IMG/VR virus record: IMGVR_UViG_3300046314_000558
Span: 1 to 64,000 of that record
DNA: 64,000 nucleotides
Reading direction: 5' to 3' (one strand)
Source of the DNA: a virus
Under the pieces are notes generated by a model, which worked only from the letters and a program-made list of their open reading frames with translations, made no database searches and was not told where the DNA came from. The position numbers and the translations under genes are program-made. Below are positions 4,327-27,420 of the stretch, piece after piece; position 1 is the first letter of the stretch; each line of letters begins with the position of its first letter.

Positions 4327-4656
4327 ATGTCTGCATCAAAAGCTGTTAACTATACCCCAGAGCAAACCACCAAAATGGTGGCCGATTATGCGGCTGGCGT
4401 GACCGTGGAAACCATCGCCGAATCACTGGGTAAAACTGTTCGTTCAGTTGTGGCCAAATTGTCACGCGAAAAGGTTTACAAAGCTAAAACCTACGTTTCT
4501 AAAACTGGCGCTCCAGTAGTCAAAAAGGATGCGCACGCAGATGCGATTGGCGCGATTTTGAGCATGACTGAATCGGAAATCGAATCGCTTACAAAAGCCA
4601 ATAAAACCGCATTGGAAAAGATTTTTTCAGCATTGGCAAATTCTAAGCCAATGTGA
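4327..4656 (+). CDS. small HTH DNA-binding protein, paralog 2
   Basis: 109 aa, nearly identical in layout to the protein at 481: YTPEQTTKMVADY, the module AESLGKTVRSVVAKLSREKV, then the linker AKTYVSKTGAPVVKKD and a helical tail. SD AAGGA precedes the ATG. Two -10 boxes lie upstream (about 4209 and 4284), the nearer with TTGCAA 16 bp before it. Confidence 0.85.
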   Translation: MSASKAVNYTPEQTTKMVADYAAGVTVETIAESLGKTVRSVVAKLSREKVYKAKTYVSKTGAPVVKKDAHADAIGAILSMTESEIESLTKANKTALEKIFSALANSKPM

Positions 4657-6498: not shown

Positions 6499-6538
6499 AA
6501 TATCTTAAACAGCGCAGAAACCAAACAAAGGACATATG

Positions 6539-6847
6539 ATGACTAAAGCAACCACTCAAAACTACACCCCTGAGCAAACTACCGAACTCGTCGAAGGCTA
6601 CCAAGCGGGCAAAACCGTGGAACAACTCGCCGAGACCCTGGGCAAAACTGTGCGATCAGTAGTCGCCAAGCTCTCACGCGAAGGCGTGTATCAGGCCAAA
6701 ACCGCAACCCGTGGCGTTGCCCGTGTTAAGAAAGCCGAGCTGGTTGACCAACTTGCCCAAGCATGTGGCGTGGCTCCAGAAGTGTTTGAATCACTGGAAA
6801 AAGCCAACCATGACGTCTTGGAAGCACTGGTGGCCAAGCTGGGCTGA
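6539..6847 (+). CDS. small HTH DNA-binding protein, paralog 3
   Basis: 102 aa. The same module as 481 and 4327 (YTPEQTTELVEGYQAG, LGKTVRSVVAKLSREGVYQAK) with a different Ala-rich helical tail. Two ATGs are possible (6536, 6539); 6539 gives the better spacing from AAAGGA. It is the last coding gene before the structured-RNA block. Confidence 0.85.
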   Translation: MTKATTQNYTPEQTTELVEGYQAGKTVEQLAETLGKTVRSVVAKLSREGVYQAKTATRGVARVKKAELVDQLAQACGVAPEVFESLEKANHDVLEALVAKLG

Positions 6848-6878: not shown

Positions 6879-6907
6879 TTGAAACACACAGCCAAATCCA
6901 GTATAAT
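6879..6907 (+). promoter_or_regulatory. consensus-like promoter of the 140-nt RNA
   Basis: TTGAAA (6879-6884), 17 bp, TATAAT (6902-6907). The expected start is near 6914. Confidence 0.8.
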
Positions 6908-6913
6908 ATATAC

Positions 6914-7057
6914 TTAGACAGTCGGGAAGGGCTTAATGAATGGCAAACCAGCAATGAGTTGCCGCCCGTTCCGTGACAGCAGCCCACCTCACTACTCAGC
7001 AATTAGATTGCAACTATCTGTGTGGCTAGTCTGTTCACAACGACTGTCAATTTTTTT
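6914..7057 (+). ncRNA. structured small RNA, about 140 nt, unknown family
   Basis: There is no ORF. It lies between a strong promoter and a T7 run. The ends pair perfectly: GACAGTCG (6917-6924) with CGACTGTC (7041-7048), followed by AA and TTTTTTT. Inside, GGAAGGGC pairs with GCCCGTTCC around a GGCAA/TTGCC stem, and a second branch holds GTGACAG/CTGTTCAC around GCAAT-TAG-ATTGC. The closing stem plus T run would also terminate transcription. It does not look like a tRNA or the long single rod of 6S RNA. Confidence 0.7.
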
Positions 7058-7059
7058 AC

Positions 7060-7088
7060 TTGAAACGCTATGTTAAACGGCGTATAAT
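7060..7088 (+). promoter_or_regulatory. consensus-like promoter of the giant RNA
   Basis: TTGAAA (7060-7065), 17 bp, TATAAT (7083-7088), starting 2 nt after the T run of the small RNA. Confidence 0.85.
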
Positions 7089-7094
7089 AGATAT

Positions 7095-8050
7095 ATATAT
7101 TGGGTGACAGCGGTTCCAGCGATATATTACTGCTATGGAATACGTCTTAATTGTGGGGAAAACCGAGCCACAGCCCTTAGCAACCATAAGTAAGAGTTCA
7201 AACAGTGCTAGCCTGATCTGCTGGGTACTTGTGTGTAGATAATCCGACTAGTAGGGTTCGGCCGAACCACGAACGCTGCATGCTGCAACTGTACTTAGCA
7301 GTTTGTTGAACTCTTTCTTATGGGTGTTATGAGTCCTGGTCTCTACTAGGATAACAACTTGATGGTGACCGAATTCTCTAGTCACCGCCCAACCTTTTTA
7401 GCTAATCTGTTTTTAACCCTCTGATGAGCACATGCAAGTTGTGCGAAACTCTAAGTGTCGGGGCAATTGTGCGAACCACTCCCACGGTTCCGATTGCTGC
7501 AACTTAGGGTCAGGACGAAAACCCACCGTGCTTCGGCAATCTAGGTGGAAATGAGTAATTCTAGGGAGCCGTCCCTATATCCCTGGCCGCCTTATCCTGT
7601 ACCGGCGTTAAATGGTCTTAATTTCTAGGATTGTAGCCTATATCTACACGAGCAATGGCAACCCGTAAGGTGGCAACGGTCCTGCACAGACCCTAAACCG
7701 TAGCCGAGCTTGGCCCTCGTGGCTGTAAAGCCGACCCTAAGTCGTTAAAAGCTGTGCGTGGTTTGAACATCCAGCACAAGGTGAGGGAGTGCAGCTTAGT
7801 GCATCCAGGGGTGGAGACCCGAACCAATACTGTTAATGCACGGATACTCCTGGTGTGAACTGGAGCCGAAACGTGCAACCATCCCCCGATCCCAAATACT
7901 CAGAGCTAACCCCTGCTGGTATGATTTGCGCGATTTAGGGTCAGCGGCTGTGGTAGCATAAGTCTGATGTGGATAAAAACTTGTTAGTACCTGGACGCAG
8001 GCATAGTTCAACGGCCCCCAAGATTCGCTATCTTGGGGGCTTTTGTTTTG
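7095..8050 (+). ncRNA. giant structured non-coding RNA, about 950 nt (GOLLD/ROOL-like class suspected)
   Basis: A 950-nt interval with its own promoter and a strong terminator (8014-8050) and no credible ORF. It has many helices: a 17-bp stem with one T-T mismatch (7184-7201 / 7306-7323); hairpins at 7255-7268, 7326-7355, 7364-7386 and 7463-7497; and a GNRA-type loop GGCT-GTAA-AGCC (7721-7732). Two 9-bp long-range complements, 7503-7511 with 7733-7741 and 7689-7697 with 7934-7942, would form a pseudoknot. Size, phage setting and nearby tRNAs fit the known large ornate phage RNAs GOLLD or ROOL, but I cannot align it to either consensus. Confidence 0.75.
8014..8050 (+). terminator. terminator of the giant RNA
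   Basis: GCCCCCAAGAT (8014-8024), 5-nt loop, ATCTTGGGGGC (8030-8040), then TTTTGTTTT. Confidence 0.9.
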
Positions 8051-8084: not shown

Positions 8085-8114
8085 ATTATACCAGTGCCTA
8101 ACCTATGCTGTCAA
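8085..8114 (-). promoter_or_regulatory. minus-strand promoter facing the giant RNA 3' end
   Basis: Minus strand TTGACA (8114-8109), 18 bp, TATAAT (8090-8085). A transcript would run antisense through the terminator hairpin of the giant RNA. The box lies in a GGCGCC context like elements R1-R4. Confidence 0.6.
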
Positions 8115-8237: not shown

Positions 8238-8549
8238 TTATTGTGATTTAGGGTCAGATAACCGCGATTCAATCAATTTAAGTACAACTTTGTTGACCTT
8301 TTCCAGGGATTCCAGCAATTCCAGGTCGCAGTCGAGCAAGGTGGCAATCCGCTCGATGTGTTCCGATTTTTTCACTGGAATTTCACCGCGCTTGTTAACA
8401 TAGGATTTTTTCTGGTAGACTCCAAGGCTTGAGAGCTTGGCAATTATGCTACGAACCGGCACATCCAGCTGGTCAGCTAGCTGTTCAACTGGCACCCCGG
8501 ACTGGTAGTCGTGTACTAGACGGTCACAAATTTCTTTGGTGTATGTCAT
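8238..8549 (-). CDS. small HTH DNA-binding protein, paralog 4
   Basis: 103 aa. Same module in diverged form: MTYTKEICDRLVHDYQSG, then LDVPVRSIIAKLSSLGVYQKK and a leucine-rich helical tail. A GACCCTAAA motif falls in its last codons. It lies 10 nt downstream of the next gene in the same minus-strand operon. Confidence 0.8.
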   Translation of the reverse strand: MTYTKEICDRLVHDYQSGVPVEQLADQLDVPVRSIIAKLSSLGVYQKKSYVNKRGEIPVKKSEHIERIATLLDCDLELLESLEKVNKVVLKLIESRLSDPKSQ

Positions 8550-26932: not shown

Positions 26933-27019
26933 TATTTTAGCACTTTAGAAGCCCAACACCAGTGCACTGGTACGCGAAGTGTGGTTACGACGCTTGTCCG
27001 TTAGAGTGCTAAAATATGG
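26930..27019 (+). repeat. long hairpin E of the tRNA-cluster family
   Basis: 15-bp perfect arms CCATATTTTAGCACT (26930-26944) and AGTGCTAAAATATGG (27005-27019). The 60-nt interior includes CCAG-TGCA-CTGG. It begins with the CCA of tRNA-Thr and ends where the tmRNA acceptor piece begins. Confidence 0.85.
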
Positions 27020-27079
27020 TTGTATGAAGCAGACCCAAAAGAGTTCGACACGCGGGGGCAGTGCCCGCCAGGTCCACCA
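27020..27079 (+). ncRNA. ssrA: tmRNA, 3' (acceptor) piece of a circularly permuted gene
   Basis: It ends CAGGTCC-A-CCA (27069-27079). T arm GCGGG-GGCAGTG-CCCGC (27052-27068), with the GGCAGT-type loop I associate with two-piece tmRNAs. Its acceptor strand pairs perfectly with GGGCCTG at 27233-27239 downstream. Exact 5' end not determinable; probably after hairpin E. Confidence 0.8.
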
Positions 27080-27091
27080 TTAGGAGATTTA

Positions 27092-27274
27092 ATGAATTTA
27101 TTGTGCGGATACCATGCAAAGTCAACAGAGACTTGTCAGTGGGTAATAGAAAACTACGATCGTCCAACTGATAATATCACGGTTAGAGATTGGGTAGCTG
27201 CGTGCAAAGAATACTTAAAGTCTGTTAATGATGGGCCTGACACAGGATCGACCGGGCTAAGAGTAGCAAAGTAG
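27092..27274 (+). CDS. ORF within the intervening segment of the permuted tmRNA, 60 aa
   Basis: ATG 27092 has a good SD (AGGAGA, 27082-27087). The 60-aa product (MNLLCGYHAKSTETCQWVIE...) looks like a real protein in its first 45 residues. The last 14 codons run into the tmRNA 5' piece and encode low-information sequence. Processing of the tmRNA precursor would cut through this message. Confidence 0.55.
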   Translation: MNLLCGYHAKSTETCQWVIENYDRPTDNITVRDWVAACKEYLKSVNDGPDTGSTGLRVAK

Positions 27275-27420
27275 ACAACTCGGCAATGTGAAAGCCGTAG
27301 GATTGGGGATTCCCGGTCGTAGCAACAAAACAAAAATAAACGCAAACGATACACAGTTCGCATTAGCAGCCTAAACGCCGCTTAGGGTTATGCCAGTTCC
27401 TCGTAACAGAATACTGGCAC
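27233..27420 (+). ncRNA. ssrA: tmRNA, 5' (coding) piece with tag ANDTQFALAA
   Basis: GGGCCTG starts the tRNA-like domain, followed by ACACAGGATCGACCGGG, the conserved D-loop-like region of tmRNA. A pseudoknot-like CGGC/GCCG stem follows. The resume codon and tag frame are 27342-27374: GCA AAC GAT ACA CAG TTC GCA TTA GCA GCC TAA. After the stop comes a hairpin GCCAGT/ACTGGC. The 3' end is uncertain. Confidence 0.85.

Follow-up and report, generated by a model that had tools for sequence, protein, structure and literature searches.

Locus and gene organization

The DNA analysed (the window) comprises 64,000 nucleotides, positions 1-64,000 of the 99,859-base IMG/VR virus record IMGVR_UViG_3300046314_000558. 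From the ORFs, we take its replication genes to be T5-like, and the phage DNA polymerase is 48% identical to polymerases of T5-like Vibrio and Pantoea phages, phages of 110-130 kb. A permuted (two-piece) tmRNA is encoded on the phage genome at 27018-27374 (97.8 bits), and ARAGORN identified 25 tRNA genes in the window. The features at and around the RNA locus are:

478-804, 4327-4656 and 6536-6847 (plus strand) and 8238-8549 (minus strand), four small helix-turn-helix-like proteins that resemble one another in sequence
6879-7057, second, smaller predicted non-coding RNA gene directly upstream of the giant RNA gene, with TTGAAA (6879-6884), 17 bp and TATAAT (6902-6907)
7060-7088, plus strand, predicted sigma70-type promoter, TTGAAA (7060-7065), 17-bp spacer and TATAAT (7083-7088)
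7095-8048, plus strand, predicted giant non-coding RNA gene, ~954 nt, with no conserved ORF, relatives in IMG/VR and no Rfam match
7102-7176, plus strand, 5′ core three-way junction, P0 (7102-7105/7173-7176), P1 (7114-7140) and P2 (7152-7156/7168-7172)
7185-7322, plus strand, P3 module, a 17-bp helix (7185-7201/7306-7322) and an internal domain, identified by covariation and folding
7256-7267, plus strand, self-complementary loop GUUCGGCCGAAC inside the P3 module, candidate homodimer contact
7389-7414, plus strand, tRNA slot, holding tRNA-Glu(UUC) in about a quarter of the relatives and only a short U-rich stretch in the window
7414-7518, plus strand, type I hammerhead ribozyme, with stems, core and cleavage site predicted by comparison
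7519-8010, plus strand, modular 3′ domain, with CGAC-loop-GUCG-UUAAAAG hairpins (e.g. 7732-7744) and one sense UUUAGGGUC (7934-7942)
8014-8048, plus strand, intrinsic terminator, hairpin 8014-8024/8030-8040 (GCCCCCAAGAU/AUCUUGGGGGC), then UUUUGUUUU
8085-8114, minus strand, consensus promoter TTGACA-18-TATAAT, just beyond the giant RNA terminator and directed back at the giant RNA (antisense)

The first-pass annotation assigned the giant RNA gene its own promoter and terminator, and both the TTGAAA-17-TATAAT promoter and a strong hairpin terminator are present in the sequence, the hairpin being followed by TTTTGTTTT. A similar TTGA..TATAAT arrangement precedes the RNA in most relatives, and full-length relatives end in a GC-rich hairpin plus CTTTTGTTT or a near variant. 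The description of the region as ~950 nt without an ORF also holds. The longest ORFs within 7095-8048 encode 40-41 aa on the plus strand and 61 and 87 aa on the minus strand, and stop-to-stop translations match the relatives just as short fragments, on both strands simultaneously, so the conservation is at the DNA level. Coding potential was rejected on these grounds; an ORF conserved across homologues, named in the annotation as contrary to its reading, was not found.

The whole RNA folds mildly better than shuffled sequences (z of -2.1, 20 shuffles) and the 149-nt helix domain (P3) has a z of -4.0. Covariation backs three parts of the structure, the 5′ three-way junction (7102-7176), the helix 7185-7201/7306-7322 and the hammerhead (7414-7518). 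As the aligned relatives share ancestry and are not independent, the covariation cell counts given below exceed the number of independent events, but several distinct pair types are present per position in the tested helices despite this kinship. Taken with the absence of a conserved ORF, this covariation supports the annotation of 7095-8048 as a giant structured non-coding RNA gene and, judged by its length and extensive covarying structure, the predicted RNA conforms to the large ornate phage RNA kind.

The smaller predicted non-coding RNA encoded upstream is ~150 nt, with closing arms GACAGTCG (6917-6924) and CGACTGTC (7041-7048) followed by a T run. It is kept whole or in part in >30 relatives and has a fold z of -2.8; an Rfam match to 6879-7057 is absent.

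Relatives and distribution

Patterns from the 5′ core identified 63 IMG/VR stretches, and hammerhead and covariance searches added relatives to give a total of ~70 IMG/VR contigs. When contigs of at least 78 kb were picked via the DNA polymerase (G004, G005, G006, G010-G013), six of the seven were found to carry the RNA. Two patterns searched against ~85,000 bacterial and archaeal genomes returned no relatives, and blastn of isolated phages with three family members gave nothing above chance. The family appears to belong to a group of uncultured T5-like phages. One relative (L044) has a tmRNA of betaproteobacterial type at 7674-8028, hinting at a betaproteobacterial host.

The RNAs of the relatives are ~450-1400 nt in length, with ~390-1360 nt between the 5′ motif and the terminator. 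Their comparison reveals an architecture with a conserved 5′ junction, optional modules (P3 and tRNA-Glu), a central hammerhead and a modular 3′ domain, kept in parts across the relatives, that ends in the terminator.

The 5′ core and the P3 module

Alignment of 37 sequences over 7102-7176 and folding with RNAalifold resulted in a three-way junction in which 5 of 17 pairs are compensatory. P0 is GGGY/GCCC, P2 is UGUGG/CCACA and P1 is a variable hairpin with arms that co-change in most sequences. The unpaired stretches (GACAGCGG, CGUCUUAAU and CCGAG) are near-invariant. A covariance model of the 5′ core (R2), with E-values, as for the hammerhead model (R1) below, from a shortened calibration, detects the core in contigs picked by DNA polymerase.

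Many relatives are without the entire P3 module. In the 14 that were aligned, 99.6% of the cells in helix 7185-7201/7306-7322 are paired and 13 of its 17 pairs have changed on both sides; for the whole tested P3 structure, 98.8% of the cells are paired, 18 of 23 pairs have changed on both sides, and the covariation score is 0.585 versus ≤0.123 in slid controls. The long helix of the first-pass annotation, given there as 7184-7201/7306-7323, is thus real, and is placed here at 7185-7201/7306-7322.

The loop GUUCGGCCGAAC is confined to relatives that have the P3 module. Its arms covary. Eleven of the 14 relatives have GGCC at the centre of the loop and the other 3 have UGCA, and the loop is palindromic in all of them; the GGCC/UGCA switch is seen across at least two module types in these 14 sequences. 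For OLE and GOLLD, Kretsch and colleagues (PMC12286853) argued for intermolecular loops from neighbouring bases that covary although they could not pair with each other in a single chain. By the same reasoning, the palindrome switch is suggestive, but only suggestive, of a homodimer contact. In OLE, the dimer-contact loop likewise has a GGCC centre that switches to other palindromes, although OLE is a bacterial, protein-binding RNA, unrelated in sequence and structure (PMC12286853).

A type I hammerhead within the RNA

Positions 7414-7518 read AACCCU-CUGAUGA-GCACA..UGUGC-GAAA-CUCUAAGU..ACUUAGGG-UC, then AGGA. This folds as stem I (7417-7420/7512-7515), the core CUGAUGA (7421-7427), stem II (7428-7432/7440-7444), GAAA (7445-7448) and stem III (7449-7456/7502-7509) with a long extended hairpin, followed by U16.1 (7510) and C17 (7511), and cleavage is predicted between 7511 and 7512. 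The core CUGANGA...GAAA...UH at a three-way junction, with three covarying stems and the open end at stem I, is that of a type I hammerhead. In 34 aligned hammerheads, C3, U4, G5, A6, G8, A9, G12, A13, A14, A15.1 and U16.1 are all invariant, and the core varies only at N7 (U or C) and at the cleavage nucleotide, which is C in all sequences but one, where it is A; L064, from outside this alignment, has A at position 7. Position 7 and the cleavage nucleotide are places where hammerheads tolerate change. All three stems covary, with 19 of 25 pairs changed on both sides, and the score of 0.457 versus ≤0.148 in slid controls was obtained with a structure that we drew, a bias in its favour. RNAalifold, unprompted, recovers the same junction, including A15.1-U16.1.

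Of 50 distinct relatives, 35 match a strict hammerhead pattern, which had 0 matches in 2000 dinucleotide shuffles of the giant RNA. The 15 misses are four losses at contig ends, five variants (L012, L015, L032, L040 and L064) in which stem II is long and a U is added, all recovered by the covariance model (28-66 bits), and six true absences. As these six relatives (L023, L027, L041, L058, L045 and L065) lack the hammerhead yet keep the 5′ core, cleavage is not indispensable. R1 gives 28-66 bits in six relatives left out of its build, and matches in two contigs picked by DNA polymerase alone with E-values, from the shortened calibration, of 3e-25 and 5e-22.

R1 also detects short stand-alone hammerheads, at 33-57 bits and with up to 8 per contig, in phages without the giant RNA. 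Examples are the type I hammerheads at L181 5203-11950 and at other loci in L172-L200. They have the same stem II loop, AUGNAANUU, which was required by the pattern used to fetch them, and the same stem I, 3-4 bp followed by a C.A mismatch, so a short stem I is a normal design among phages. Type I phage hammerheads have been documented between phage genes, often several per genome (PMC3088659), and the hammerhead in the giant RNA is like them in its core and GUC site, in the order of its stems, and in its stem II loop and short stem I. It differs in being embedded in a structured RNA, with one copy per genome, and in its long stem III. Rfam scores it below the cut-off, with 11.7 bits for the window (RF02275) and 21.8 and 23.5 bits for two relatives (RF00008). 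This cut-off is, however, a detection threshold and not a defining property of the family and, as none of the stand-alone hammerheads at the ten loci scanned attains it, the weak scores at 7414-7518 do not discriminate. Rfam under-detects phage hammerheads.

The sequence evidence thus argues that the giant RNA contains a type I hammerhead with an intact core, predicted to be self-cleaving. The alternative that survives best, although we judge it improbable, is that the fold is a structural or protein-binding joint, non-cutting or only ligating, in an RNA that works as an intact piece. Stem I has just 3-4 pairs in most members, and some relatives have the extra U at stem II or no hammerhead, as such a joint might allow, but the stand-alone phage hammerheads are built alike in stem I and loop II, the invariant residues include those outside Watson-Crick pairs, and variation in the core is limited to the two tolerated positions.

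An embedded tRNA-Glu

The sole tRNA found inside the RNA, by ARAGORN or by sequence signature, is tRNA-Glu(UUC), present in about a quarter of the relatives. In L006, L007/L019, L008, L011, L026, L036 and L046, 5-7 nt separate the end of its CCA from CUGAUGA; elsewhere among the relatives, the tRNA is 80-270 nt away from the hammerhead. Most relatives have the hammerhead and no tRNA. There is a precedent for a self-cleaving ribozyme right after a phage tRNA in the theta (HDV-like) ribozymes, which sit at the 3′ ends of phage tRNAs and were proposed to separate the tRNA from its trailer (PMC10879173). Theta ribozymes, however, belong to a different ribozyme class and cut at the tRNA 3′ end, whereas the hammerhead in the giant RNA is predicted to cut ~95 nt past the CCA.

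That the ribozyme serves mainly to free tRNA-Glu from a trailer, theta-like, with the window having lost the tRNA and kept a relic, is a reading to which we give a little less credence again. The theta precedent and the short CCA-to-CUGAUGA spacing in the relatives listed above fit such a release, but the type I cut would fall far from the CCA, the tRNA is distant from the hammerhead in other relatives, and most members would retain a ribozyme with no tRNA to release.

Relation to known giant RNAs

The first-pass annotation considered that the RNA could be GOLLD, ROOL or a new class. A search with Rfam models, including GOLLD and ROOL, at the cut-off and with E up to 10, gave no large-RNA match in the window or in 14 relatives; the check that the annotation had proposed, the GOLLD and ROOL covariance models against the window, was therefore negative. 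With neither model matching, the giant RNA is presumably neither of these, and of the choices offered it is the new class that stands.

There are, nevertheless, clear likenesses. GOLLD, a giant ornate RNA of phages that often exceeds 800 nt, lies near tRNA islands, sometimes has tRNAs in its linker, and has symmetric palindromic kissing loops, recognized by adjacent-base covariation; ROOL, likewise large, ornate and from phages, also lies near tRNAs and has a linker that varies (PMC12286853). The giant RNA resembles these two in size, tRNA context, tRNA-Glu insert and palindrome. It differs from GOLLD in that the conserved part of GOLLD is the 3′ end (PMC12286853) and that of the giant RNA the 5′ end, in the unmatched model, and in having a hammerhead; from ROOL, it differs in the unmatched model, in having no recognized element in common and, again, in the hammerhead. 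No hammerhead in GOLLD or ROOL was reported in the literature searched, which also held no known giant RNA with a hammerhead; an earlier description outside that literature is possible. A divergent GOLLD or ROOL could have this size range, phage origin, tRNA-rich genomic setting, linker tRNAs (GOLLD) and palindromic loops (PMC12286853), but we regard such an identity as very improbable given the failure of both models with 14 diverse relatives, the opposite location of the conserved end and the ribozyme. The comparisons support a separate family of the GOLLD and ROOL kind, with a ribozyme that those RNAs are not known to have.

Proposed processing and function

The best reading of these data is of a new class of giant ornate phage RNA that would split itself into two domains. 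We consider it likely that a T5-like phage produces a ~950-nt RNA from its own promoter and that the RNA is split by its own hammerhead; in a weaker part of this reading, the halves might provide a self-pairing scaffold that serves translation. One structured RNA would be transcribed and, as we infer with fair confidence, the hammerhead would cleave it co-transcriptionally at 7511/7512. Two separate RNAs would result, a 5′ RNA of ~417 nt that ends in a 2′,3′-cyclic phosphate and retains the hammerhead (together with the tRNA in those relatives that have one), and a 3′ RNA of ~537 nt with a 5′-OH. More tentatively, the folded halves might form an RNA scaffold that pairs with its own copies through the palindromic and other loops, as in GOLLD, ROOL and OLE. 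Equally tentatively, this scaffold might act on or near the translation apparatus during infection, a role suggested because the phages also carry tRNAs and a tmRNA.

In its most far-reaching form, which we think doubtful but worth stating, this would be a self-assembling giant phage RNA, split by an internal hammerhead into two subunits, one with a built-in tRNA in some members. It would then constitute an RNA-only particle of self-processed parts, a kind absent from the literature searched.

To our knowledge, few classes of giant ornate RNA have been described, what GOLLD and ROOL are for is not known, and the functions of phage hammerheads are still unexplained. That T5-like phages have a separate class sharing these hallmarks suggests that such RNAs have originated repeatedly, an argument for a shared function. 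The hammerhead would also provide a handle that the other classes lack, as its cleavage could be assayed in vitro and the cut ends traced in existing metatranscriptomes, and the giant RNA may be a natural example of a long non-coding RNA that houses a hammerhead.

A dispersed motif and the proposed pseudoknots

The 8-mer TTAGGGTC/GACCCTAA is present in 17 copies in the window, versus 1.3 expected, mostly outside the giant RNA. Copies of TTAGGGTC(AG) are located at 7504, 7689, 7733, 7935, 8135, 8248, 8618, 8891, 9402 and 9792, with seven more up to 57229. In relatives, the context of the motif extends to TTGCTGCRRYTTAGGGTCAG (20 nt), which matches the cleaved strand of the hammerhead, itself one copy of the motif. 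Many copies in relatives are 17-21 bp upstream of TTGAC promoter boxes and, as they occur in both orientations, the motif is probably bound by a DNA-binding protein of the phage.

This dispersal bears on two long-range pairings, 7503-7511/7733-7741 and 7689-7697/7934-7942, from which the first-pass annotation deduced a pseudoknot, with each 9-mer exclusive to its proper partner. All four 9-mers share the 8-mer, and so are copies of one motif and not two exclusive pairs. The first pairing was rejected. Positions 7503-7511 covary with 7449-7455 as hammerhead stem III and the cleavage site, the 5′ arm becomes CUGUGGGUC, CUGAGGGUC or CUGGGGGUA in relatives and the proposed partner does not follow, and 7733-7741 sits in its own small hairpin, CGAC-CCUAA-GUCG. 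The second pairing, 7689-7697/7934-7942, is possible; its core overlaps the dispersed motif and never varies, so covariation is uninformative. Towards the 3′ end, nearly all hammerhead-bearing relatives have one sense copy of the motif, and they also have one or more antisense copies; the exceptions are L044, with neither, and L039 and L061, with the antisense copy only.

That the RNA acts in trans, with the dispersed TTAGGGTCAG, identical to the cleaved strand, marking phage transcripts for pairing or cutting, is the least probable of the alternatives, as the abundance of the motif and the match of its TTGCTGCRRYTTAGGGTCAG context to the cleaved strand, which led us to consider it, are set against copies in both orientations, their spacing from TTGAC boxes, which disfavours trans-cleavage of motif-bearing transcripts, and a hammerhead arm that changes compensatorily in relatives and is not kept matched to the motif.

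The antisense promoter at 8085-8114 is conserved among relatives, where the dispersed motif precedes it. The first three of the small helix-turn-helix-like proteins (478-804, 4327-4656 and 6536-6847) match the D5-like regulator family, and two of the four flank the RNA genes and are candidate binders of TTAGGGTC(AG).
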